A stretch of 64,000 bases of DNA from Thuidium tamariscinum (lineage: Eukaryota > Streptophyta > Bryopsida > Hypnales > Thuidiaceae): the NCBI GenBank assembly GCA_947034885.2, contig OX344753.2:15748001-15812000 (forward strand). Direction: 5' to 3'. Positions 20,601 through 61,185 of the stretch are shown here, one piece after another. Below the pieces are notes generated by a model, which was not told where the DNA came from, did not search any database, and saw only the letters and a program-made list of their open reading frames with translations. How positions within the stretch are numbered: the first letter of the stretch is position 1; the number at the start of each line of letters is the position of its first letter. The translations under genes were made by a program, and so were the position numbers.

Positions 20601-21211
20601 CCAGGGTTGATTTTTGCATACACCTATTCTTAATCTTTTGAATTTTTATTTTTTTAATATAATATTTTAAAAAATTCAGTTTTATGAGAATGTTGAATTT
20701 ATTTTAGACTATCAACAAGACTCAATACAAAAAATTGCACCTCAATAATAGGAATTGTCTTCAAACTTCATTTAGATGATTTTAGATGTTGTGAACTTCT
20801 ATCTAAAGGTGTTTGAATAGGACTTTTATACTTAAGAAAAAAGAAGCAATTCAATATTACAATGATAGTAATTGATATAATAGAACTTCCTTAACCCTTG
20901 AATGTGGACAAGGACATTTTGCAGTTGATGAATGACAAAGAATCTTTTATTGTAGAATAGAAGTGCAACTATTCATCCTTGGTATTAGTGGTGGAAAGGA
21001 AAAATCTTATACAATACTTTCACTTCCAATGAGTATATTTGGCTTATTCAAAGTAGATGATGTCAAAATGCATTATTTCCATAGCCACTAGTTTGTCCTT
21101 CAAGGGTTAAGACAATAGTTTTAGAAATAAAGGAGAATATTATATTTGTCGTGCACAAACACATCGTGCCAAGATTACATCGTGCTAACATGAGAGAAAG
21201 TGTGACATAAA
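17688..21211. other. 3' flank of the metacaspase gene and AT-rich intergenic DNA
   Basis: The first few hundred bases are probably 3' UTR. The rest has no gene. It contains the hairpin element at 18355-18583, and the 20935-21115 stretch is related to 37850-38040, which marks a further dispersed repeat. Confidence 0.5.
18355..18583. repeat. Short TIR element ending in CACTA/GACTA
   Basis: GGGAGAGGCACCCAATGG and the following GTCCTTGTACCCAATGC are mirrored at the right end by the inverse sequence, giving arms of about 37 bp with one or two mismatches. The outermost bases read CACTAA on the left and the inverse of GACTAT on the right, which suggests a CACTA-like MITE. No 3-bp target duplication is clear. 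Confidence 0.55.
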
Positions 21212-21483
21212 TTAACAGGGAATCTTGTAATTGGCTAGCAACCTAACCACACCAAGACTCCATAGCTCCTGACCATCAATAGATACTGTGGTCATAGGGA
21301 AAACGCCACGTGACTTGTGACGTATGTCACAATCACGGTAGTATCCTGCAAATAATGATAGAAATGCGAAAAACACTCTATCATCATAGTATACAACACT
21401 AGCGACATCCATAGCAAGCAAAGAAAATAAACACCCACAGTACAATGGTATACCAGATGTGGTAAGTGGTTTTACAACCACCC

Positions 21484-21506
21484 CTTTACTCGCCCCCTTC
21501 GCCAGT
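21484..21506 (-). other. Possible polypurine tract of the retrotransposon
   Basis: On the minus strand this reads as a purine-rich G/A run just before TGGTTGTAAAACC, a possible LTR start in TG, a little past the end of the PHD-finger frame. It fits a second-strand primer site, but without a matching 5' LTR the call is tentative. Confidence 0.3.
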
Positions 21507-21578: not shown

Positions 21579-23667
21579 CTATGAAGATGAAGATGCATGT
21601 CCACGCCCTGACATACATTTGGGACAAACCCACCGGCCCGCCGGAATTTCTTGCAATAGCGGACTCAAACAATCCGTATGCCACCCAGTGGAACAAACAT
21701 CGCACAACACCATAGTGGCAACGCCCTTGGCGCTTCCACATAAAATGCATTTCAATCCAGCTGAAATCCACGAGTTGCTTGTATCAATTTGTCCATCAAT
21801 GTGAGGCAAGTGACATGGCGTACAATTGTGCGTGTGATCTTTCCAGATCTTGCCGTCACGACCTTCCAAGAACAATACTCCCGACTTCAACACCTCATGC
21901 ATTCGTAGAATAATATGCCCTACTGTCACGCCGAGTGTGGTTGGCGCTGTTTGCTGCAAATAAACATAGTCTCCAGGCAAAAAACGTCGAACCTGGGGCC
22001 TATAGCCCCCTCCTTGTATCGTGGCATAATGCAAAGTGTCTCTATGTTGTGCAATAGAAAGGTTGTCCAAAGCCATTGGCATTACTCTTTTATACAGCTC
22101 CGCCCGTTGCTCACATATGCGAGCCAACGTGTCCAGATCATCCATGTTATCCAATATCTTGTCTGCATCTTGTTTGATTGCCATAGGTAAAATCGGATGA
22201 TGCCCAAATAGTAAATAATAGGGTGAAAAAGAAGCAAGAGATGCTTGCTTACTAAACCGATAGCCCATGGCTATCCATGGAAGTTGCAAGTCCCAATCTC
22301 TATGATGCCCCTTGTTCAAACTATATTTCCGAAGCCCCCTCTTGACGGTTTGCACCATGTGCTTCGCCAATCCATCTGCTTCAGGGTGATCTCTTGAAGT
22401 AGTACGGTGATCAATCATCGCTTGGTCACACAAGGCTTGAAATTCACCAAGGAACTCTCGTCCTTGATCAGTCAATACCTCAGCAGGAACCTCGAAGCAA
22501 CTCAAAACACGATCCAAAAACAAATAAGGTGCCCCTTCACTGAACTTATCAGGTAATGCCACCAACTCAATCCATTTGGAAAAATGTTCAATCATCACCA
22601 ATACATACTTATTATGTCGTGGTATTACCGGTAATGGCCCTACAAAATCCAAACTCCACCTATAGCCCAATCCCATGATTGGCAATGGTTGTAATTGAGG
22701 CATCAGGGCATTGAATGATGCTCGCACTCTATCACACACGATGCATCTAGCTATCAATTGTTGAACTTGCAATTGCATTCCTCGCCACCAATAGTGAATT
22801 TGTAGCAAGCTATGAGTTTTTCGCACTCCAAAATGCCCCAAATCCTCGTGAGCATGCATAATCAATTTCACTCTCTCATGAGGTGCCGGTACTACCTTTT
22901 TGTTGCCATCTGGCCATACTCGAAGCAAATGAGTCCCCTCCCACACAAACCACTTGGCTCGTTGTAGGATCCGATCTCTCTCCTTGGTTGACACAGTAGT
23001 TGTCAATTCTCCATGCTTCAAGTATTTCATAACCTCCACATCTTCAAAAATATCTTTGGCGCCCCCAGACTCTTCACCTCCATCCACATCCATTGTAGCC
23101 ACAATGGCTTCCTTGGTAGTGTCTCCAGCCATCGCCATAATACTCAAGTAGGTGGCACAATGCCAACCTGGTAACGAATCTTCTCCCTCTTCCACGTGCC
23201 AACGAGCCCCCGTAGAGTCCACTTGGCTAAGATTTGGATTGCGGCTCAAGCCGTCAACATCCATATTTACCAAACCGGCTCGGTGTACAACTTTAAAGTC
23301 ATACTCCATGAGCATAAGCGCCCATTGTGCAAGCTTTCCTATAAGCTTGTCAGACTCCATAAGCCACTTCAACAGTTGGTGATCTGTTACCAGTAGAAAT
23401 TCGTTACTGTATAAATAGCAGCGGAAATGAGCAATTGCCCAAATTGTTGCTAGACATTCTCCTTCATATGAGCTATACTGTGCCTCCGCATTGTTGTTTG
23501 AGCGACTAGCATAAGCTACTACAAACTCCTTGCCATCGTCGTCCATTTGAGTCAACACCGCGCCAATCCCCAGTGAGCTCCAATCCGTGTGTAATTGGTA
23601 TGTCCTACCTGAAATTGGCCTCCTTAATATTAGTGACGACGCTAGCCGTTCCTTCAATTGCTTGAAG
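21579..23667 (-). pseudogene. RNase H - integrase - PHD finger part of the gypsy polyprotein
   Basis: Open for about 695 codons. RNase H shows the acidic motifs LHTDWSS, SSYEGECLA and VTDHQLLKWL. Integrase has the N-terminal H-H-C-C zinc site (HEDLGH ... CIVC) and the catalytic Asp in SLDFVGPLP and VLTDQGREF. The expected catalytic Glu in the ADGLAE-type motif reads Lys (ADGLAK), so the triad is broken. The C-terminus has a chain of Cys pairs, KCILC, LCDVC, GWHTDC and VCPKC, forming a full C4-H-C3 PHD finger about 45 residues long, just before a Ser-rich end. PHD fingers usually read histone H3 tails, so this could guide integration as chromodomains do in chromoviruses; that is inference. The frame runs back into the inserted MITE at 23668, where its apparent ATG (23741) is not native. 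Confidence 0.9.
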
Positions 23668-24142
23668 AACACCATATTCATTAAAATGAGAGAATCGAGA
23701 CCTCTCAAAATAACTATCGTGATCTCGACCTGAATCACCAATTTCCATTAAAATGAGAGTTTCCACGTCAAATGTGAAAGGTTTTATGTCAATTTAGCTC
23801 GAATCGAGCTAAATTGACAAAAACCTTTCAAGTTTGGGTTGAATGTATGTCAATTCAGCTTAAATCAAGCTAAATTGATATAAAACTTTTCAATTTTTGG
23901 ATGAATTTGAAAGGTTGTATGTCAATTTAGCTCGAATCGAGCTAAATTGGCATAAAACCTTTCAACTTTTGGAGGCGAATTTCAAAGGTTGTATGTCAAT
24001 TTAGCTCGATTCGAGCTAAATTGACATACAACCTTTTAGCAAATTGACTTAATTTTTTTTAATTTCACGTTGTGTTTCCTTTAAATTACATTGGAAAACT
24101 CTCAATTCACTAGAAAACTCTCATTTTAATGAATATGGTGTT
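23668..24142. mobile_element. MITE nested in the retrotransposon, with a 4-bp target duplication
   Basis: This 475-bp element begins AACACCATATTCATTAAAAT and ends with the perfect inverse, giving 25-bp terminal repeats. GAAG occurs on both sides (23664-23667 and 24143-24146). Removing the element and one GAAG rejoins the RNase H reading frame, which confirms the borders. The interior contains four successive palindromic blocks built on TCAATTTAGCTCGAATCGAG and its variants, each next to an AACCTTTCA-type motif. It has no coding capacity. It inserted after the retrotransposon and may be younger than much of its decay. Confidence 0.85.
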
Positions 24143-24146
24143 GAAG

Positions 24147-25209
24147 GCGGCTTCTTGCTCATGTCCCCACATCCAAGGTTGATCATTCCTTGTCAACATG
24201 GTTAATGGCTTTGCAATCGCACTAAATGTCTTCACAATTTCCGATAGTAATTACACAAATCCAAAAATGCCCACAATCTACTCACATCCTTCGGCCTTGG
24301 AATAGAAAACATCACCTCTACTTTGCTGGCTACCACTTCCAATCCACCGGGATATATCATGTGGCCCAAGTACTCCACTCGGTCATAATAAAACTTACAT
24401 TTATTCGGATGTAGTTTTAACCCATGGAGCCTCAGTCTAGCAAATACTTCTGCCAAGTGAGCTCTGTGTTGTTTTTGATTCATGCTATAGACAGTAATAT
24501 CATCAATGTAGCATTTTACAAAATCAAAGCCCAAAAATATGCGATCCATAACTCTTTGAAATTCTGCTGGTGCATTTTTCAAACCAAATGGCAGGAACCT
24601 CCACTGATATAGACGATCCTTACCATCTTCATCAATTCCCCAGAACGCCGTTTTCTCCTTATCACCTTCTCGTATACCAAGTTGGTGATAACCCGATCGG
24701 AGATCCAAAGTACTAAATACTTTGGCATGGCCAATGGCATCAAAATTCTCCTGTGGTGTTGGCATGACATAGCGGTCTGACTTCGTGAACTTGTTAATTC
24801 TACGATAGTCTCCACACATCCTTTTCTCGGTCCAATTTCCATAAATGTCTTTTTTGGATGGCATGACCGTTGCTGATGCATACTCACAATCTGGAGAAGC
24901 TAACTCTACCAATCCTGCCTCTAGTAACTCCTTGGTTCGGGCTTGGATCATCTTGCGTTCTACCTCGCTATACTTGTACGGTTTGCGATAAATCGGTGCA
25001 TCATCCGTCAAGTTAATACGAACCTCTTGTCCCTTCAGTACACCTAAGTCTTTAAGACTAAAGGCAAAACAATCCACATACACCTTAAGGAACTCTTGTT
25101 CCTCCTTCATCTTTGCTTCATTTTCCAGGCCTACCAACGGTTGCCAAGTTTTATTGGTCACCATTTCCTTCCTATCTTCCTTTGAAGCAGATTTTTCCAC
25201 CTTTGGTTG
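24147..25209 (-). pseudogene. Reverse transcriptase part of the gypsy polyprotein
   Basis: From the stop at 25210 the frame runs on through a linker and the RT domain to 24232. Landmarks are the YRKPYKYS entry, MCGDYRRINKFT, FSTLDLRSGYHQLGI, FLPFGLKNAPAEFQRVMDRI and the catalytic CYIDDITVYS (YxDD box), then the thumb with LGHMIYPGG. All core RT motifs look intact. Just after CNYYRK the frame is lost near 24237, where one T seems to be missing; in the shifted frame the expected RT/RNase H connection continues to 24147. The stop at 25210-25212 (TAG) separates it from the methyltransferase in the same frame, so RT and methyltransferase were parts of one polyprotein. Confidence 0.9.
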
Positions 25210-26901
25210 CTATTGCACACCATGTGGAGTAGAGTCATCTTGCTCTACTCCAACCATGCCATACTGCTCTTCAACTTGGCTCAATTGCCATATTTCCTCG
25301 GTTTGACTCTCTATGTGCTCCTCAAAGAATAATTTATCCACATGCTCCTCCAATTCGATTGTATGCTTGGCCATTTGCTCCCAACTAGGCCAATTGGTTC
25401 GTGGAGTCGTGAAAAATGAATTATTCTTCCATAAATTCCATGGGTGAGTTGTAAGGGCCCCTTCGCCCCCAACCATCAAGTGCAAAGTCTCGGAACTTGA
25501 TGGTTTCATGGCCTCTTGCAACTCATGAAATCCCAAGTGGCTTGATAAAGTTGAAGCTATACGCTTTTGCTCAGCCACTACAAGTGAAACCACCCAAGAG
25601 AGACAATTTAAATCCATGGCTTGATCTATGAGGTGTTGTCTTTGAAACTTGGTGATACCAGGAATGTTGGTGATTCCCGTTTGGAATCCCATAGCCCTTT
25701 CCCGTTTGTCAGCATTGGGTTCCACCATTTCTTCAGTGCGGGAATCCCACACTAAGCCTGGTCCATTGTTTTTAAAGGTATAGGTACTTGAAAAACTCAC
25801 CAAAGTGGGCAAAGCCTTGCGTGGTTCGCCTTTGCGATTAACTAACGCTAAGGGAGCTTGATCATCATGGTATACACGCCTTGGTGAACGGTGAGGATCT
25901 AAAATATCCTTCACATAAACATCTGGACGTTTAGTCCGTTCAATTGCAGCAAATAATAACTCTGGTGGTGCCATATTAGTCCACCAGAGTCGCGGTCTAT
26001 GAGCTCGTGAGCCCATCGCTGCTGCATCCAATAAAACAGGAATGCCCATAATTCCATGAATACGATGAATACTTTTTAGAGTGCGTGTGCGTGAAGTACT
26101 CATTACAGGTACATTTTCAATAATATACCCCGGTGAACGCGGTTGAGAAATTTGGATAGAACGAATTATCCGCACCATATTATAAAACCGTGAAGAACGA
26201 TTGTCCTTCAACCCATTTTGCTTACCGGCCATAGACATACCTTGACATGGCCACCCTGCAATAATTAAATCTACAGGTCCCACGCATACAATGTCCTCAT
26301 GTGAAATCATTGAAATGTCACGTGGTAATGCAGAAAATGCAGTTTTGATAGCATGGGTACTCAATAATGAAGGAAATGCTTGGCGCAATCGTCAAGCATG
26401 ACGCTTTGCCACTTGACGTGCCATATCGTCATTGTCCACATAAAGGTATCGTCGCACCTTCACTCCTGCCTGCAATACTGCAGCCAATCCAGTGCCAATT
26501 CCACCAAACAACTCCAAAAGTGTAATACCTTCATTTGATGGTTTCCAATGGATTGTAGAAGTATCTAGAGGCGGACCAGTATCGTCTATACTTGTATGGT
26601 CCTCCTCATCCCGTGGCAACAGGGATTGCTGCCACGCCTCTTGGATCACGATTGTTGCTGCATCTTGTAGCTTGGCGGTACTCTCCCACGCTGATTCCAC
26701 CCTTGGTTGATATAATATTTCGCCCCCATCTTCGGAATTATCCAAGTAATCATCTGAATCTTGGCTATTTGCAATAGAAGTGGCAACATGGAGGTTTTCG
26801 AAATCCTCCTCAAACCAAGATTGGCCTTCAGCTACAAGCCCAGAGAAGCAATAGAGATCAGCAAGATTACCGGTAAGAACTCGAATAAAACGAGCTGGCA
26901 A
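25210..26901 (-). pseudogene. C5-cytosine DNA methyltransferase domain within the retrotransposon
   Basis: The domain runs from about 26520 to 25570 with the conserved motifs in canonical order: motif I (LLELFGGIGTGL, SAM binding), motif IV (AGWPCQGMS, catalytic Cys in Pro-Cys near 26245), motif VI (IIENVPV), motif VIII (SRAHRPRLWW), and motifs IX-X (RERAMGFQTGIT and AMDLNCLSWV). Motif I resembles the DNMT3/DRM group (FxGIGTG), but the order is not rearranged as in plant DRMs, and PCQG recalls bacterial and DNMT1-type enzymes. The stretch between VIII and IX is short. No extra reader domains are seen; an acidic region precedes it and a linker of about 110 residues follows before RT. A TGA at 26392-26394 lies between motifs I and IV, so this copy cannot make the whole enzyme without readthrough. 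No catalytic residue appears lost. It is flanked in frame by protease and RT remains. Confidence 0.9.
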
Positions 26902-26928: not shown

Positions 26929-27987
26929 TCATCCCGGTCTATAAGATGCTGTCTCCTCCCAAAAGTCTAAGGTGAAGCCCATAGGGTATAGTACCATAGC
27001 CCCTACCAAAACATCATAAGATTTGGCTTCTATGACTATAGCCTTCACCTTTATGAAGCTAGCGTCCTCGACATCATCATGGCGAAGCCATAGTGTTAAT
27101 TCGCCCTTTGTGATGCCACTAGCTTGCTCCATCCCTCCCATAGATGTACTAATGGTCCATGGACACGTCTCCAATGTGTTCCTAGTTAAACCCAATCCTT
27201 CGATTGCCGACTCTCCTAGCATCAAAGGTTAGACTCCAAAATCCAATAGTACTCTTCGAGGTGCAAAAACTTTCCCTTTAGGTCCAACAAGTTGGAAAAC
27301 ACCTTGGGAATTATCAAGAACTACCACCCCTAGAGTGATGGAAGACCGTTCTATTGCTGGTCGTACTGGCATGGTCTTCAACCGAGCAGCCGTTGAGATA
27401 AGGCCCTTAGACTGGACCCAATTCTCACTAGTCATTATCTCTGACTCAAGCCTGGTTTCCATTGCACTCATAGATGTAGAGGTGCCCTCCTCACACATAG
27501 TAGCCGCCAATTGGAACACCTTAGCTACACTAAACTGTAAGTGTGAAATCGTGGATGCAGAAAACAAAGGAGCTTGGCAAACCGTAGTGGCAGCATCAAG
27601 GAGTATGCTAGTGTCTTGGCTACCTGAAGTAGTAGGCCGTTTAGCCCGAAGAGTGCTTGAGTGTCGACTTATTGGTACCATTGATGAGGTGGGAACTACA
27701 TCTTCTATTGTAAATGACTCAGGCAACCGCGCTTGGCAGTTGGCTTCACCTCGCTGTGGATCCAACCTCGTACTTGCACCTCGTGGTATGTCAGGTAGTA
27801 TGATCTTGCTCCGTATCATGGCAAAACCCTCCATTGGGTTTCCATTTGATTCAGCCAAACCACATAGCATGTGATCATCTTCCTCTGCATAAAAAGATGT
27901 TGTAGTCTTTTGAGAAGAGGATCCTTTGGTATCAAAGTTGACACTCATAGCCGCCATCTTAGCTTCCAACTCTGTAAATCGAGCCTT
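26929..27987 (-). pseudogene. Protease region of the gypsy polyprotein
   Basis: In the same frame as gag and the methyltransferase, a low-complexity linker of about 240 codons leads to a retropepsin-like core. The active-site motif, normally LLD(S/T)GA, reads LLDFGV and is followed at once by a TAA (27229-27231). The frame then continues with PLMLGES to a segment containing KSYDVLVGAMVLYPMG, which resembles the second half of retropepsins where a dimer-like flap and LLGxD-like motif occur. A TGA at 26929-26931 ends it before the acidic lead-in to the methyltransferase. The altered catalytic triplet means no active protease from this copy. Confidence 0.75.
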
Positions 27988-29260
27988 CTACGATTTCTTG
28001 TCTCCATTAGTAGTTTTGGCCTCTTTGGACTTAGCCCCCTTTGCATCTTTAGCTCCTTTAGGCTTGAGTTCTAGATGTATCTTCCAACAACTAGCTTCCC
28101 CATGGCCCTTAACACCACACCCAGAACAATAACCACATGCCTTAGAAGGTTCCTTCTTGGTTATCTTTTTGCAATCTCGCCGACGATGACCAACTCCCCC
28201 GCAGCCATAACATACAATATCTGCATCTCCAGTGTTAGCTGGAATGCTGGCTTTAGCAAACTTGGTCTTCTCTGGCGGTTTTTCCTCCTTTTTAAAAAAC
28301 CCCATGGCAGCTTTTTCCTTCAAGAGATTGATCTCAATCTTCTTAGAGGTCTCAAAAACAAACCTTAAAGTTGGTGGTACACCTAATCTCAAGGCTTCTC
28401 CTCGGACTAGAGTTTTCAACTCATTGTCGAATATACTATACCAGTGCTGAACACCTTGCTGTTCAATCACTCCATGTGTTGTAGAGATTAATCTCCTCAG
28501 TCTCAAATGTGCTTCTCGCAAAGATTCGTCACTCCCCCTTGCAAATGTGCAAAGTGACTTCATTTTATCTGCTCGTTGGCCTTGATAGTCCCGTTGCAAC
28601 TACATGAAAATCGCGCAGGGGAATTGAAAGGGGGTGGATCTCTCACCATCGTGGGACTTGTGGTGACAGTGGCCCTTAAGCCTTCTGTACCAACACTCCC
28701 TTCCTCTTTCTTCCCTTTGTTATATGGGATCATAACATTAGGCCCTCCTCCCCATACATCGGCAAAATTCGGGGAATAATAATCTCGCCATGCTAGAATC
28801 TATGTGGAGTGAGCAAGCTCAAACTCCCCATAATCTGCTAGCGATGCTCCTTCAAGGCACCCAAATAATGCTCTCTATACCATGTATGGGTTAAAGTCAA
28901 TGTTGCGTGATTTTTGGAGCTCACACCACATGGTGAACTCCCTTCGAAAATCATCAACCTCCATGGTGCCTGTAGCACCCGAAAATCGCCGAACTCCCCG
29001 ATCAAAACTCCCATATGGTGTAGTCATCTCGTCCCACACGAATATAGATTCCCTAGGAGCAAATTTTACTCTGTGGTCAACTATGATGGTTTATAGGTCT
29101 TCTTCCTCCACACGCTCAAGATTTTCTACCCAATCTTCTTGCCCTTGGCTAGTACTTAGGATAGAATCACCTTGACCCTTCTTCCCCAAGAAAGGTTTTC
29201 GATCCCGAGATCGTACTAGTGTGATACCACCAGAGTCTGATGACTCAGAAAAGGTGTCCT
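27988..29260 (-). pseudogene. Gag capsid and nucleocapsid region
   Basis: The upstream part contains a capsid-like stretch (VDDFRREFTMWCEL ... RALFGCLEG), interrupted by TAG near 28875 and by a frame change before 28600. After a further TAG (28600-28602) the frame runs 203 codons through RDYQGQRADKMKSL, typical of Retrotrans_gag domains. It ends with two CX2CX4HX4C zinc knuckles, CYGCGGVGHRRRDC and CSGCGVKGHGEASC, and a Lys-rich tail. A TAG at 27988-27990 separates it from the protease region in the same frame. That stop could be an old gag-pol readthrough signal, but with so many other stops simple decay is as likely. Confidence 0.8.
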
Positions 29261-30343
29261 AGCAAATGGTGTCCCGCTCCTAGTATAACCCGGTCTGCTA
29301 GATGGATCCAGTTTTCACATATAAATAAAATTCACATGTAAAGCTTCCAAGCCTCATGTGTCCCCCCCACTACCTCATAGTAAATTGTTGGTGGCACCTC
29401 TATATCTAAGAAACCACGTGTTAAAGCATCCCAAACACTGGATGCTCTTTCCAGCCACCAACCTTGTTCCCACTACTACGTTGTGTAGAACAAGTAATCT
29501 CCACTTTGGAACTCAGTGAAAATCAAGGAGAACATTGGCAATTGAATTGCCCCCTCAAAAATATGTCTCACCACCTCTCGACGTTGCCCCTCGTTCTTCA
29601 ATACCACCGCTTGTTGTGGAATCACCAAGTCAATTGCTTCCACTCGCCTCCTTGCCTGATTCAATGGAGCTCCAATGCATTAGAAAAATTCTGAGGCCAA
29701 AACAGGGCTGCTAAGCTCTGATTTTCGGCAGCCCCGCAGTGCAGTTACGGAAACATTAAAAAATTATTTTTTCAGAAAAAAAAATATATATATATTTTTT
29801 TTTTTCAAAAAAAAATATTTAAAAAATAAAAAATATTAAAAAATTCGCCATTCTGACGTGGCGCTGATGTGGCACTAGTAGTGCCACATCAGATTCCGAA
29901 TTTTAAAAAATAAAAAAATAATTTTTTTTTCCCATTTTTTTTGTAATAGCACCGCAGGGGTGCAAAACTGGCGGCCTTGTTTTAGGCTGAAATTTTTTCT
30001 AATGGCTAGGCGATTCTGCTCTCAAGTCCCAAATGAGGCGCACTCTTCGTTGTTGAGTCCAAAATTTAATTGCCTTTGGACCTAACACTTTAGTGTCTGG
30101 TTGCCTGAATGCTTGGACTCCAAGTCGGTCACGTGCCAATGGTGAGAGAACAAATGGCAAAATAGTTTCTTGAGGTTGATGTCTTAGATTAGATTCACTT
30201 GAGGACCCTACGTGAAGGGTTTGGAAGGACTCTAGAACCCCTTGAAGATCTTCTTCGGTTAGTTCAATTTGTATCCCTTCCTTTTTTGTGTCTCCTAGTG
30301 GTACCAACCTAAATGGCATAAGGCCACCCTTGCCTTTGTCCAT
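29261..30343 (-). pseudogene. Middle gag region, split by a MITE
   Basis: Open pieces at 30343-30005 and about 29664-29476 flank the MITE at 29678-30004. The first contains an acidic stretch and a WTQQRRVRLIWDLRAES segment just before the insertion. The second (QARRRVEAIDLVIPQQ) continues beyond it. They read as parts of the same gag protein but in shifted frames. No named domain was recognised. Confidence 0.5.
29678..30004. mobile_element. MITE nested in gag, CATTAGA-type group
   Basis: The ends CATTAGAAAAATTCTGAGGC and inverse (TTTTTTCTAATG) form imperfect terminal repeats of about 30 bp, with GGCCAAAACAGGGC paired to its inverse. Inside are A/T homopolymers and the palindrome GCACTAGTAGTGC within a GACGTGGC...GCCACATCAG arm. 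The same plan occurs in the elements at 9896, 48350 and 51232. No clean target duplication was found. Confidence 0.65.
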
Positions 30344-30980: not shown

Positions 30981-32239
30981 AAGTGCTACCCCCACCTCCA
31001 AAACACAAAAAAACACGTTTTTGTACAAGTTTAGGTGTAGATTTTCATTACATATGCACCCTTGAACGCAATGAGATCTTTTTCAAGTAATAAAAATGTG
31101 AGGAAAAGCTTCAAAAGAAACTAGAAAAAACTCACAACATTGCACAAGTCAAGTCTACACCATTCTTGAAGAATGATTGCATGCTTGGACGGAACTCCAA
31201 GACAAACGCCTCTCACTTCATCACATGGGAGACTCAACTTGAAAAAGATGAGTCTCCATTGCCCCACGTGGAAGACATGGGCATTGAGGTCCCCAAATGA
31301 GATGCCAACTCCCCGTTCCAATTCGAAGTCGAGACCCCAACTTGCATCCACAGTTCTTCACGCTCCACAATACTCTGTAACGCTCCGCGCTACTTCACAT
31401 ATATCTTCACAATGTTGGGCCGATGGGAAATCACATGGCACACTTCTCACATGACATATTAAAGAGGTTACTACTTTCGAAAGGGGCTGTGGCATTGATG
31501 ATGTTTGAAATTTGTTATAGTGGGCTAAGGGCAAAACACCCATTCCTGTGCCTATTCCTTGCAATGGACAATAGATTCACCTAAATATATCAGTAGAGTT
31601 CCCTTAATGTGTTCGCCACATGTGTGATTGTAATTTGTTGACACAATTGAAGGACACATAGGAAAATCTAGTTGGCTGAGTGTTGATTTTCGCAGGGTTC
31701 AGTTTTGGGGGCACCTATAGGACAGTTTCACAGGTCTAGGGAGCCAACACTTTGAAAATTTGTAGAAATTACATACTATATCCAAAAAATCTATTTTTTT
31801 TCTAATATTCATGATTTTCACTCGCTAATACTAGAAAAATATCATTTTCAGAAAATGTTGCCTCCAACTATGCTGAATTCCTTATTTTGACGGTTTTGGG
31901 TGTTTCCACTATACAATTTTATGACACTCATGGATTGAAGTCATGTTCATTTGGATTCTAAACTCTATAAAATTCTATGAAAGATTTCTTTTCTTTTTTT
32001 ACTTCTTTTCTACATCTTCCATACGAAGGAATAAATACCTTTAGAGAGAGGTTACTGTATTGGGTTACAGAAGTTCTACATTAGTGAGGGACCAAAATTA
32101 GTGTCACCGTAACATTGGTGTGGCTGGTGTTGTTCCATGTTGCGCACTGGGCTTTTCTGTGGAGCGATTGCGGAGCTCTTTGCAAGCAGGCTTGCAGCAG
32201 CAGCTTTGTAAATTTTTATTTTTATTTATTATTTTCATC
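30981..32239. other. Gap between the retrotransposon and NTH1; no gene seen
   Basis: The 31.1-31.56 kb part has higher GC and short minus-strand frames. It may be leader or 5' LTR remains, but no match to the 21.2-21.5 kb end was seen. From about 31.6 kb the DNA is AT-rich, leading to the NTH1 promoter. Confidence 0.4.
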
Positions 32240-33889
32240 ATGGAGAACAATGTCTTTGCGTCTTTTTCATTCTCCGCCGCAACGCATCATCGTGCGAGCA
32301 GCAAACGAATCAAGGTATGAGCCTGGCCTCTGCATTCCTCAGCCTTAATTTTCTTGTTCGTATCGAAACTCTTCAATGTCGAAACAGCTTCTCTTGAACC
32401 TCTCCTAAACCCTAAAATCTGTGATGAGTCCTTTCTGGCGGATCCAAGGGGCTTATATGAACGTACAGTACGTGGTTGACGAGTATATTTAGCAAAGTTT
32501 TTGGTCAATTCTCTGCGCCTGAATGCTTCTACCCCATTTCGGATGAATTTTCAATGTGATGACGACACGATTCTTAATTTGCTCCGTTGCTGCATCGAAT
32601 GCGAATCACTTCGAACCATTTTATTAACTGAAATTGGAGTGAATAGGTCTAGTTCCTTTATCTGATTTCTACGGAGTAGTTCGGTAAGAATTGGAATGTT
32701 TTTGACGTTTTCAACCTCTTGTAAGCCTTAGCGAGCGAGCAGTAGGCGAATCAAGGTCTGTGCCTCTACTTTGCATTCCTGAGAATTTTCTTGTTCGTAT
32801 CGAAATTTTCAGTTTCTCTGTCGAAACAGCTTCTCTTGAACCTCTCCTAAACCTTGAAATCTCTGATAGAAGCCTTTCTTACGGATCGATGGGGCTTAGA
32901 TGAGCGCGGTTGACGAATATTTTGGGAAGGTTTTTGGTCCATTCATGCCTTGAATGCCTCTACTGCAAATTTGACGAATTTCAAATTTCCGATTAGCTTA
33001 GGATACGATTCGTAATTTCCTCCATTGATGCATCGAATGCGAAACATTTATTAACTGAAATTGGGGTACGTAGATTTAATTCCCTTATTTGATTTCTAGT
33101 TCAGTAATAATTGCAACGTTTTTTGAACGTTTTTCAACCTATTCTAAACCCTAGAATTTGTGGTGACACTTTTCGTGAGTATCTGAATTCAAAAATTCGG
33201 TAAGGTCATTGGTCAAACTCCTCGCTTGAAGTAGCAAGAAATAGCCAGAATTCTTCTACCGCATTTTTTAAGCCTAATTTTAATTTACCTTGCTCCATTG
33301 CTGCTTCTAATGCGAATAATTTCCAGCCTTTTACTTCCGGTAATCGGAATTAATTGTTGTTAATCCTATCTCTGATTTCTAATTCAGTAATAATATGAAC
33401 CTTTTTCATAAGTTTCTAAATCTTTGGTGTGTTTGCTTACAGCTTAAGAACTGAACCTTTTAAAACGGAAGAAACGCAATTGAAAAATGGCTTGAAGTGG
33501 AATATTCCGTTTGGGGGTAATCTTGACTCGAAACGTATGTGAATTTGTTGTTTGTAGGAGGAGCCAGAAGAGGATGCTAGTGCAGGGGGTGGCGTCAAGG
33601 CTGAAACTGTCGCTAGCTCCATATATGATCGGTCCGTGGCGTGCACAGACAAGGTGGGCTGCTGTGTCCATGGTACTTCTCTCAGAGCTCTTTAAATGCA
33701 CTGCCTCGGGAAGACCAATTCCCGTAATAATACAAAGGTGTGAGAAGTTTGTGTAACATCATATGTGAAATTACAGAGGGAGTGTGCAATTAGGGAGCTT
33801 TGCGTTTAATCATTCTTCCTTACTGAATTTTTGTGCATTTTTTTCTCGTTCATTAGATAGTCCGACGGCTTTGATTAGATCAGTGTGTT

Positions 33890-54951: not shown

Positions 54952-57900
54952 ATGGTGGTGGAATGTGGTTTTAACATGGCAGCTTCCAACACGCTTTCAA
55001 CCGTGAACGGGCACGCCGAGCAGCATCAGCATCGTAGGGGTGGGGGTGGTGCTGCGGGAACCAGGCCGAGCAACAACAGCAACGCCTCAGTTTTGTCCTT
55101 TCAGTGCCAGTCGTCCGGGGAGCAGCACCAGGACGTCTCCGTGCGCTTGCACAGCAACGGCAACTGCGGGGAGCACAACAACCGGCAGTGCAGGGCAGAA
55201 TTTCTGAGCGCGAAAGATGCAAGTCGTCGAAAGAGGGTATGTTGTTATTCGAATGTGCTTGATCCTTGGACTTGCATGTATGGTGAATTTATTATGGGAT
55301 CGATTTGGTGGAAAGACTTTGGCGAGTTTGAAAGCGAGATTATGGATGTGATTGATTTGTTTACGGAAACGATATGGTCGGCTCTTGTAGTGTGCGGAGC
55401 GTAAGTGAAAGGTTGTGACAGGTGTGTGTCTAGAGATTGATAATTCAAATATATGTAGACGTATTATTTTAATTTTTTGCTCGTGAGGTGGCAAATCATG
55501 GAGCGTCCGTTGAGTTGCAGTCCCGAAATCCTTCAATTCTCATGCCGCAGGAGATCATAGCTTCTCGAGGAGTGTCGGCAAGGGTTAGGGTCTAGGTTTG
55601 CATAGTGAGTTTATCCATATCTTGCATCCGCATGTGTCGTTGATGTAATTTCGGCATTGAATGATGAATTGGTATCTGCATTGGTCAGCTTCTTATTTCG
55701 TGAACCTCTTGATCCTTGCATATGCATAGCGATCTGGAGATAGGGTGTTGTACCTGTTTGTATCTGGTGTGTGTGAAGGGAGGCTTCTTGGGTCGTGGAG
55801 CTTTTGCTCCGTCATTTGGAACAGAGCTTTTAAACATAATTTACTAGGACGAATTCATTGCTCTTGTACATTGAATATCCTGTATGGTTTGGTATTGTAA
55901 ATGCTGCAGATCCGTGAGAACCAATGCCTTCATATACAAGTCCTTTATTTTCAACCCGTTCTATCTTTGTGAATTTTCTTGTGGAGAGATATGGAGTTCT
56001 ATCTGGTCGTTGTACATCCTGCACTCGTCTGTGTCTGTCAATAGTAGGGTTTTTTCTTACCCCTATGTGATTTCTCAGGTCTATATTAATGAGATTTTTT
56101 AGGTATTATTAATTTTCAAGAGGATTTTCAGAGCTTAGCGAGATTCTGAAGTGCACTGTTAGTGCCAGTGTCTCTTTCGGATTTCTCGCTCTTCTTGTTT
56201 TCGTTTTCCCCTCCAGTTTTCGGCTCTCCTGAAATACTAGCTTTATAAATTTAGATAGTTGCTGCGGACGACTCTTCTCTTGGCTTGCTTCGTGCTCTGT
56301 GCCTTTTCCATTTTATTTACTTCCAGTGATTCGTTTTTGCTCTTGAATTCCGATCGAGTTCCTTGCACCCTAGTTTGGAAGGATCATATTGCAGATTGTT
56401 GTCTTGATTTCTGCAAGAAAGTTTTTCTGTTGGTAGCCCCTCGCATCTTGGGGTCGTCTATCAAACTCCGGTTTACTTACCGGGAAATAACAACTGGAAA
56501 ACTATCTAATCTGCGGGAATTGCGAGTTCTATTGGACAGAAAAGTGAAAGCTGTGTAGAAGCTTTTCAGAATTGATAAGAACAATGGTGGAAGCACGTGG
56601 CTAGGGCTTTGTCCACCTCAGTGTTATGTGATGAGAAGCTTTCAGTGCATAAACAATACTGAGATGGTTTATGTGTTCAGGTGAACCGGTCTGCCAAGCT
56701 GAAGCAGCATAAGCTGGACGCCCGTAGAGAACAATGGTTATCACAAGGTTCACAAGGTAGAGCTTCTTTCATGTAGACCAATGAAAGGCTAAGTCAAGAA
56801 TCGTTGGAGACAATTCTTGTCTTTATATGTTGTTTCGGTATCCCAATTAGTTGCGATTGTAAGTGTCCAATTTGAAGTACGTCCTTTGTCTTGCTTGTGG
56901 TTGACGTAGCTCTTCAACACCTTTCATCATACTCAATTTACATGTGCATTTTTTTCTCTGTCAAGGGCCTGTAGTTTTATAGACTCTTTTGCATGAGACG
57001 TGCTTTCCTTTCTTGTTAATCTGGCTTTGTTTAATCTGCCGCAAATTTATTCTATTCTATCCGTTTTGGGTGGTGTCTGTTCCTGATAATTAGTATCTGG
57101 AGGATTGACCCAGGTTAGGTCGATAGAGCAGCATAGATCTGTGAGCTCTGATTGTCTTCGGAATTAGTGTGCTCCTTGTGTGCTCCTTAGTAGTTTAGAA
57201 TGCAATAGAGGAAACGATGTCTTTTAACCTTTGTTGAGCCCAACCTTATACATAAATTACAGCACTGTCAAGTCTTCAAGGCGAAATGGTTTTCGGTGGG
57301 GTTAGGGTAGAGTCCTGCCTAGCTAGATCACATCTTCTCTCTTGTTTCTATGTACTCTCAGCTAGCAATTTGCTCCTACATCTTTGCATTTTATGGAGCA
57401 TTGCTTGAGGTTTCCTCCGTCTTCTTACAGGAAAACAGGGGAAGGCGGAGCAGCAAGAACAAAGTCATGAGCAACAGCATCGGAATTGTGAGCAGCACCA
57501 CAAGACTGGGGATGGAGAGTCCATGCCGCAAGAGAGGGCAGGTCCGTCAGGGAGCTCTCGCAGTCAAGGTTCGGGTTCAAGTGGATCTTTGTGTGAGCGG
57601 ACACCTGTAGGTTCCCCTGCCTCACATTCACGGTCCTCTGGAAGTGGCATGAGTAATGAAGTCAAGAGCTCTAAACGAGAGGTTCCATCAAAGAGGCAGG
57701 ATGGTTCCTCAAGGGCACCCAAGTATTTCAGGGATGAAGAACTGCATGGGGAAAGTGAGCATAAGCAGGACTCGACTAATAATGGACGTTCCGGTAGTGA
57801 TATGAGCAAGTCACGGTCGAACAGCTCGTGTGCAAGTAGCAGCTACAGCACAGGAAGTGGTTCTGAAGACAATGACGAGTCCCACGACGCTGAAGATGAC

Positions 57901-58488
57901 TGGGAATCAGCTTTTGATGCGTTGCATGTACAGAGTTCTCCGCATCGATCAGAAGGGTCACACAAGGGTCCTAGCTCTGATCGTGTTCTGCATAATGAAG
58001 GGAAGGAATTACATGACAAGAAGCAGAATGGTACTCATCACTACAATCCTCATCATCCTGACATGCAGGGTGGCCAGTTGAAACCCGAGTACAAATACAA
58101 GAATTCTGGTTTTGGAGGCCGGAGAGGAAATGGAGGAAGAGCTTGGCGGCCTGATGATGTATCTCGACCTCCAACATTGCCGAGGCTCACCAAGCAGCAT
58201 ACATACCCGAACCACTCGAGCAATAACAACCATCAAGGTTGGGGCAACATGCACGGAAACATGTGGGGGAATCAACCTGCAACACCGTCATACTGCCCTA
58301 TTTGCACGGAGGAGCTTGATATGACCGACTCGTCATATATGCCCTGCACTTGTGGCTTTCAACTGTGTCTATTCTGCTACCACAGAATCTCTTCGGACGA
58401 TGGACGCTGCCCGGGTTGTAGAAAGGCTTACAACCCTGATTCGGCAGTTAAGCTGTCGCGGTCTTCCTCGGTTTGGCTACGAGTCTGA
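54952..58488 (+). CDS. CNOT4-like C4C4 RING finger protein (putative E3 ubiquitin ligase)
   Basis: Three exons: 54952-55236, 56681-56756 and 57431-58488, all GT-AG, total 472 residues. Exon 2 has an alternative donor 9 nt upstream (end 56747) that keeps the frame. The N-terminus is Ser/Asn/His-rich. Exon 2 encodes the conserved basic stretch VNRSAKLKQHKLDARREQWL. The long middle is Ser/Gly/His-rich and probably disordered. Near the C-terminus a RING has eight Cys (409, 412, 426, 428, 433, 436, 447, 450) with PCTCGFQLCLFC, the C4C4 type of CNOT4/NOT4, but no RRM is present. CNOT4 RINGs recruit E2 enzymes; a ubiquitin-ligase role in nucleus or cytosol is inferred from the domain. Plants have several such RRM-less proteins. 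The start is the first in-frame ATG, with a second eight codons later. Confidence 0.88.
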
Positions 58489-60573: not shown

Positions 60574-61185
60574 TCAGTTGAAGAGCGTTGGATTCAACCA
60601 GTCCTTGGAAACGTCGTCCAAATGCTCATCAAAATCCACCACACGCCGCTGCCGCTCCTCCTTCATATAATCGCTCAGCAGATCATTCGCAGCCGTATCC
60701 CGCAGGCGCAACACCCCCGCAGGAGCACCCTTCCAAATCGACCCCTCGCGAACATACAACCCCACGACAGGCGTCGCCTTCCCCGTCCCTTTGGCTAGAG
60801 CTCCTAGCAGTCGGTTGTCCAGCACGAGAATTCCCGCTTGCGGACAGTGGCGCGCAATGTGGTCGCCGATCTTCTTCCCGAGAGGACTGAGTTCGTGGTT
60901 GTCGAAGAGCTCATTGGCATGGTAGTACCCTACGATGATTTCGTCCTTCGAGGAGGCCAGATGCTCGTCCACCTGGGAGAGCGCGAGCTCCAGCATGGGG
61001 AGGAGACCTAATTGGCCGTGGAATAGGGGGACGCAGTCGGTGACTTCGACGGTGGTGCCGTCGATGCGACCGATCAAGACGCCGTTCACGGCACTGGTGG
61101 GGTGCTTCAAGGCGTGCAAGACCAGCTTCACGTACGCCGTCTGTCGTAGGTCGTAGGTCGCCATAGCTTTTAAGTCCTCGACCAT
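60574..61185 (-). CDS. ER membrane protein complex subunit 8/9 homolog
   Basis: An uninterrupted 203-codon frame. The N-terminus (ATYDLRQTAYVKLVLHALKH ...) and the conserved GVLIGR, PLFH, LLPMLELAL, GYYHANE and LSPLGKKI motifs mark the UPF0172/EMC8-EMC9 family, an MPN-like fold lacking the metalloprotease JAMM residues. EMC8/9 sits on the cytosolic side of the EMC, which inserts tail-anchored and multipass proteins into the ER membrane. Length matches the usual 200-210 residues. A second ATG at 61164 (MATYDLRQTAY) matches the family N-terminus better and may be the true start, giving 196 residues. No intron is needed. Plus-strand frames across this region are shadows of the GC-rich codons. 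Confidence 0.93.
   Translation of the reverse strand: MVEDLKAMATYDLRQTAYVKLVLHALKHPTSAVNGVLIGRIDGTTVEVTDCVPLFHGQLGLLPMLELALSQVDEHLASSKDEIIVGYYHANELFDNHELSPLGKKIGDHIARHCPQAGILVLDNRLLGALAKGTGKATPVVGLYVREGSIWKGAPAGVLRLRDTAANDLLSDYMKEERQRRVVDFDEHLDDVSKDWLNPTLFN

Follow-up and report, generated by a model that had tools for sequence, protein, structure and literature searches.

The closest described system to the one treated here is KnitGypsy-Dnmt3 of the alga Klebsormidium nitens, a retroelement carrying its own cytosine methyltransferase (MTase) and published by de Mendoza et al. 2018 (PMC5890265). We analyzed a 64,000-nucleotide stretch of the genome of the moss Thuidium tamariscinum (assembly GCA_947034885.2, contig OX344753.2, positions 15,748,001 to 15,812,000; hereafter the window) and found in it one decayed Ty3/gypsy-type retrotransposon, running from 31456 to 21147 on the minus strand between AATA duplications, with a DNMT3-type C5-cytosine MTase as a standing component of its coding region. 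KnitGypsy-Dnmt3 and the present element share an unrearranged DNMT3-type MTase in a Gypsy-type Pol, with purifying selection on the MTase, and their repeat layouts agree, a figure legend of that paper giving the algal element as a DIRS arrangement with Gypsy domains. Set against the description of KnitGypsy-Dnmt3 in the passages on it, the present element differs in its bryophyte host, in a conserved UAG that sets the MTase apart on the Gag side, in a PHD finger after the integrase and in 4-bp target site duplications. SymbioDIRS-Dnmt3 and SymbioLINE-Dnmt of Symbiodinium likewise are retroelements bearing a cytosine MTase, but the former is a DIRS element with a tyrosine recombinase and the latter a LINE, both unrelated to the Gypsy elements according to the same passages, which present the charophyte case as an independent acquisition.

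Two further systems each share one half of the element. The plant DNMT3 proteins PpDNMT3a/b, as outlined in PMC6453930, have a DNMT3-type catalytic domain in canonical motif order; however, they are host genes with a C-terminal DUF3444, whereas the MTase of the element reads PCQ at motif IV and forms part of a Gag-protease-MTase arrangement. Plant Ty3/gypsy elements have the same order of gag, protease, reverse transcriptase (RT), RNase H and integrase (PMC6317226); that survey covers long terminal repeat (LTR) elements, its main text containing neither “methyltransferase” nor “PHD”, whereas the present element has split repeats, a layout that may have hidden the family from LTR-based surveys. 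A 2025 survey (PMC12344493) repeats the streptophyte acquisition and names no bryophyte elements in its passages on the subject. Thus, an MTase-bearing Gypsy element from an alga is known already and the present family widens that case; its presence in bryophytes and Closterium, the leaky-type stop and the PHD finger are apparently new, no report of them having appeared in searches of the open-licence literature.

The methyltransferase, its copies and its relatives

The element reads, in order, repeat B, gag with a CCHC knuckle, a protease region, the MTase, a UAG, RT, RNase H, integrase, a PHD finger and repeat A, and a single frame of the minus strand holds the pieces from 28599 to 24232, interrupted by single stops. 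Pfam recognized DNA_methylase in 25210-26388 (1.6e-14), and the motifs that we take to be I (LLELFGGIGTGL), IV (AGWPCQG), VI (ENV) and VIII (RAHRPRLWW) follow in canonical, unrearranged order, as the original prediction had it for a C5 MTase in a Ty3/gypsy element, including its PCQG-like motif IV. These motif patterns are retained in 63-69 of 71 full-length relatives. In a profile search against the PDB, in which the best match spans about 145 profile positions, DNMT3A scored 91 bits, DNMT3C and DNMT3B 82, HhaI 34 and DRM2 29. An entry listed as a DNA methyltransferase, 4onj, which we take to be the tobacco DRM, scored 46. The fold, judged on that of a relative, is of the DNMT3 kind. The MTase is therefore nearest to DNMT3 in profile and fold, despite PCQ at motif IV. 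Motif I had been predicted to resemble DNMT3 or DRM, and only the former likeness stood: a DRM assignment was rejected, as the rearranged order of that family (VI-X before I-IV) is absent and the DRM profile matches are weaker. Host DRM-like exons (in L006 and L007) do have the rearranged order. Among the PF00145 places of the genome matching profile positions 1-100, no host DNMT3 was identified, the place at C11:15506226 being unread.

The genome searched comprises 363 Mb in 19 contigs, and 124 of 473 candidates were scored in the RT search, so that the copy counts are lower bounds. At least 125 RT rows were obtained: 25 of them represent 19 copies of the element at 45-100% identity, and the other 100 lie at 34-41%. 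A search with the MTase gave 38 rows, and comparison of the two row lists by eye placed an MTase upstream and on the same strand in all 19 RT copies found (at least 19 in the genome), mostly adjoining the RT by tblastn, with an insertion inside or between the two domains in a few; none of the 100 other RT rows listed has an MTase row nearby. One further MTase match (C10:24177765-24178625, 42% identity) has no RT row nearby among those listed. In the six most distant pairs for each domain, which compare L017, the most diverged of the close copies, with other copies, dN/dS is 0.15-0.16 for the MTase (at dS of about 0.9) and 0.06-0.10 for RT, values indicative at the level of sequence that the MTase is under purifying selection; the closest pairs give 1 or more, as expected for decaying copies. 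Were the window copy taken alone, the domain could be read as a host DNMT fragment inserted by chance in a single copy. We regard this as having a negligible chance of being right: the MTase is found in 19/19 copies, stands at the same place in relatives from other plants and algae, and is under selection. The prediction that it is built in is thereby borne out.

Three overlapping protein searches returned at least 76, at least 66 and 31 matches. Among the matches listed are relatives from Marchantia polymorpha, Calypogeia fissa, Sphagnum troendelagicum and Sphagnum fallax, from Closterium NIES-53, -54, -67 and -68 and many metagenome proteins; none of the relatives listed is a K. nitens protein. 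The host is plant-like, as predicted, and with relatives in liverworts, Sphagnum and Closterium the element is no isolated plant oddity. The MTase precedes RT in P0105, P0113, P0127, P0130, P0134, P0135, P0137, P0139, P0140 and P0082, in the Sphagnum protein P0108 and in the contig L106, and the Calypogeia proteins seen have no RT. In a second arrangement it lies between RNase H and integrase (P0110, P0145, P0149 and P0124, the last beginning inside RNase H). A search of genome contigs gave two loci, L106 and L107, and one of viral contigs 46 loci at 23-40% identity, which we take as putative ordinary C5 MTases. L106 (1-9285), a contig of 9.3 kb, was binned with a cyanobacterial genome, presumably as eukaryotic contamination; it is a retroelement of the family with two long open frames and identical 127-base ends.

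In a tree of 88 MTase rows, made without plant or animal DNMT3 sequences, the window groups with metagenome rows and then with liverworts (97, starred), and 16 second-arrangement rows, some labeled so from MTase-integrase order alone, fall together (92, not starred). The RT tree (40 rows) recovers the same host groups, with the MTase-less Ty3 rows of the genome forming one branch (100/100) and the second arrangement another (83/86). A single clade of all RTs with the protease-MTase-RT order was rejected by the approximately unbiased test (p 0.017, with long branches present), and a single gain for the whole set is therefore not shown. The Sphagnum rows (P0052 and P0108) are 70-80% identical to liverwort-type rows and 46% and 57% identical to the window (over 175 and 95 residues), a pattern that may reflect either horizontal transfer or parallel lineages of long standing.

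A conserved UAG between methyltransferase and reverse transcriptase

The codon at 25212-25210 is TAG in 13/13 aligned copies, followed by CAA CCA in twelve of them and by CAG TCA in L017, and a 14th copy, L005, reads TAG CAA CCA. UAG CAR YYA thus stands in frame in all 14 close copies examined (of the 19, the site is unread in C1:37.48 and C10:6.52) and in the distant relative L106, where TAG CAA TCA correspondingly separates two open frames, of 1158 and 1043 aa. Other stops within the MTase and RT domains each occur in three copies at most, one artefact excepted: a seemingly common TGA at 24232-24234 (12/12 in projection) was rejected, being due to a private indel of the window copy. The other copies in which the place was located run on, apart from L015 with a private stop of its own there; in L016 the search motif had no match. 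Occurrences of the nine-letter motif are not unusual in themselves (4 in the window vs 4.8 expected), so the evidence lies in its shared place and frame. SIRE1 of soybean is a plant precedent for the UAG CAR YYA context. The same CAR YYA 3' of UAG is given as the context required for readthrough in tobacco mosaic virus (TMV) in the passage on it in PMC2754532. Among 97 database proteins whose MTase reaches the profile end, RT is absent from 76, of which 50 end 72-142 residues further on, as such a stop would give; contig ends and search length limits would favour the same ends.

Since the UAG is common to the copies and not a private decay, MTase and RT are probably not parts of one unbroken polyprotein. 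The original prediction, which set the MTase between protease and RT in the frame of both, was right as to position and frame, and the single polyprotein that it described probably does not hold for the 14/14 close copies. Instead, the MTase is probably made as Gag-protease-MTase, of which it would be the C-terminal end rather than simply a middle part of Pol, with RT-RNase H-integrase-PHD probably produced via readthrough.

Split repeats and the organization of the window copy

The features of the window copy are collected below.

Features of the element in the window (positions are those of the window; e-values from Pfam)
Feature	Position	Strand	Basis
4-bp target site duplication AATA, 5' side	31457..31460	.	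element ends read
Repeat B, 5' element end, begins TGTCATG	31088..31456	-	blastn to copy C2:35.41; genome places; end read
gag, N-terminal half, degraded	28600..29676	-	blastn 70% to L040; reading frames broken
gag, C-terminal part, CCHC zinc knuckle	27988..28599	-	Pfam zf-CCHC 7.8e-05
Spacer and aspartic-protease region, single stops	26929..27969	-	position of PF13650/PF13975 in relatives
DNMT3-type C5-cytosine methyltransferase	25210..26901	-	Pfam, homologues, profile vs PDB, fold of a relative
Conserved in-frame UAG, then CAA CCA, between MTase and RT	25204..25212	-	copy alignment
Reverse transcriptase	24232..25200	-	Pfam RVT_1 2.3e-32
Later insertion, 25-nt inverted ends, palindromic tandem repeats; parts RT from RNase H	23668..24141	.	
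RNase H, DDE integrase (H2C2 and rve), C-terminal PHD finger	21579..23667	-	Pfam 3.2e-32, 2.4e-14, 4e-11, 3e-09
Repeat A, 3' end of window copy, ends CACGACA, purine tract at start	21147..21490	-	
4-bp target site duplication AATA, 3' side	21143..21146	.	element ends read

The order gag, protease, RT, RNase H and DDE integrase is that of Ty3/gypsy (Metaviridae-type) elements, the protease being assigned in the window via relatives only: Pfam gave no protease match in the window pieces, and the assignment rests on PF13650/PF13975 at the same position in relatives, this region being matched by tblastn in L002, L004, L005, L008 and partly L014. The Pfam matches to RT_RNaseH, integrase and PHD lie in the frame piece 21579-23741. 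The window copy is dead, as seen from the stops in its gag-protease part and MTase (in the latter a private one at 26392-26394), a private frameshift that ends its RT frame where other copies continue, and the 0.47-kb insertion. The insertion itself (23668-24141) is MITE-like, its inverted ends being perfect and its tandem repeats 60-nt palindromes.

Two identical LTRs flanking the coding part were not found; the layout is B-coding-A-B-A or B-coding-A instead, and an LTR search within the window gave no direct pair because the repeats are split. The longer form is exemplified by copy C2:35.41, and repeats A and B have 39 and 40 places in the genome, respectively. Where the ends were read (11 copies), four are A-B-A (in one of these an insertion interrupts A), another is a shortened A.B..A and five, the window among them, have a single A. 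An identical 4-bp target site duplication flanks 10 of the 11, the 3' end of the eleventh (C6:28.47) not being found. The element ends are TGTC...GACA, altered at the TG end in two and at the CA end in two of the copies with duplications; TG...CA ends with a short target duplication are of the Ty3/gypsy type. At the joint, A and B meet as CA.NN.TG, with NN reading GT, GC, AC, GC and GC, and as CACGACA.GC.TGTCACG in L106. Just inside repeat B, at the position expected for a primer binding site, a conserved ACTTGAMAAAGATCTC occurs in the window (31073-31088), L040 (3823-3838) and L106 (7415-7430).

Split direct repeats of this kind are DIRS/PAT-like. To our knowledge, DIRS/PAT elements lack target site duplications. 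Membership in that group was rejected, as 4-bp duplications and a DDE integrase are present; across the seven pieces of the window and both L106 frames, Pfam detected rve and no tyrosine recombinase.

The B-coding-A form of the window probably arose by recombination between the two A repeats, with loss of the 3' B-A pair. Recombination between the B repeats gives a solo B-A, for which the adjoining A and B places at C3:10.54 (B end not recognized) are a candidate. Alternatively, and this concerns the form rather than the function of the element, the short form could be the direct product of an integrating circle cut at the A.NN.B junction. Five short forms, the window copy among them, are flanked by 4-bp duplications and L106 was assembled as a 9158-base circle-like unit containing the junction, as this would have it; however, recombination between A repeats likewise preserves the duplications and any element with repeats at its ends will resemble a circle once its assembly has collapsed, and we consider the circle a doubtful source.

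Elsewhere in the window, a tandem pair of about 440 nt each, 74% alike, lies beside the element (32291-33154), and the open frames at 60574-61185 and 57523-58488 resemble, by eye, host genes for an EMC8/9-like and a RING protein.

Proposed role of the methyltransferase

Taken jointly, the above observations lead us to favour, with some confidence, an old streptophyte-associated Ty3/gypsy-type lineage that uses a DNMT3-type MTase together with a leaky UAG, packaging and cDNA methylation. Most ribosomes would stop at Gag-protease-MTase, and a smaller share would read through and add RT and integrase. Lying on the Gag side, ahead of a stop that is probably leaky, the MTase would enter the cDNA-producing particle in amounts like those of Gag. 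Either inside the particle or on nuclear entry, it would methylate newly made cDNA no later than integration, and a new copy would thus arrive premarked and resemble resident methylated elements; such self-methylation is what we infer. The PHD finger would tether the integrase to chromatin and may thus target integration. Among its best matches in the PDB are the PHDs of PHF12, CHD4, KDM5B, KMT2C-type proteins, KDM5A, ATXR5 and PHF21A, several of which read unmodified H3K4. In P0124 and P0127, the stretch after the PHD has DPWA and SPP/SSPW motifs and resembles, by eye, a remnant of a second methyltransferase-type domain.

Several observations weigh against this proposal. None of the three divergent copies examined keeps UAG CAR YYA: L023 reads TAG AAA TTA, L024 TAG TAA TCA, and in L032 CAA CCA follows a sense codon. 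In Closterium and in part of the metagenome relatives the stop is absent, MTase and RT sharing one frame, and by these sequences the leaky-type stop is confined to part of the family. The low dN/dS values all involve the single copy L017, the medians over all pairs being 0.35 for the MTase (77 pairs) and 0.31 for RT (78 pairs). CpG observed/expected is 0.60 and 0.67 in two copies vs 0.49 in other Ty3 loci (L029-L038, a set that includes L032, part of an MTase-bearing copy, and in which L030 and L031 overlap) and 0.57 over the remainder of the window. With the ratio no lower than in these Ty3 loci, the idea that self-methylation has left its mark as CpG depletion finds no support. Finally, KnitGypsy-Dnmt3 showed no activity in yeast, in a test that the passage reporting it calls inconclusive (PMC5890265). 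This last result, together with the Gag-side position, would also suit an MTase serving mainly as a nucleic-acid-binding or RNA-methylating part of Gag, with DNA methylation incidental, a reading to which we give little credence.

It is somewhat less improbable, though still unlikely, that the enzyme acts in trans on integrated resident copies rather than on cDNA, damping their transcription, sparing the host and so prolonging the lineage. Few copies were found (at least 19 in 363 Mb) beside many other Ty3 rows, and slowed retrotransposition is raised by de Mendoza et al. 2018 in the passages concerned (PMC5890265); on the other side, selection for such restraint must work through the host, the Gag-side placement would suit packaging in a particle better, and there is no CpG footprint. 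Self-methylation of incoming cDNA by a packaged enzyme remains our preferred reading.

As to the history of the family, we tentatively propose, leaning slightly against rather than for it, that one lineage captured DNMT3 before the split of Zygnematophyceae and land plants and has kept it since, the Klebsormidium element belonging to the same lineage with no independent capture. In bryophytes the MTase would be carried in the particle, encoded on the Gag side ahead of a leaky stop, and the DDE integrase acting on split repeats would give a replication layout between Ty3 and DIRS.

Hosts ordinarily silence such elements by DNA methylation, and an element that retains its own de novo type MTase under selection therefore presents a paradox. 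With the laboratory model Marchantia polymorpha among the hosts of its relatives, readthrough, packaging and de novo activity come within reach of experiment.
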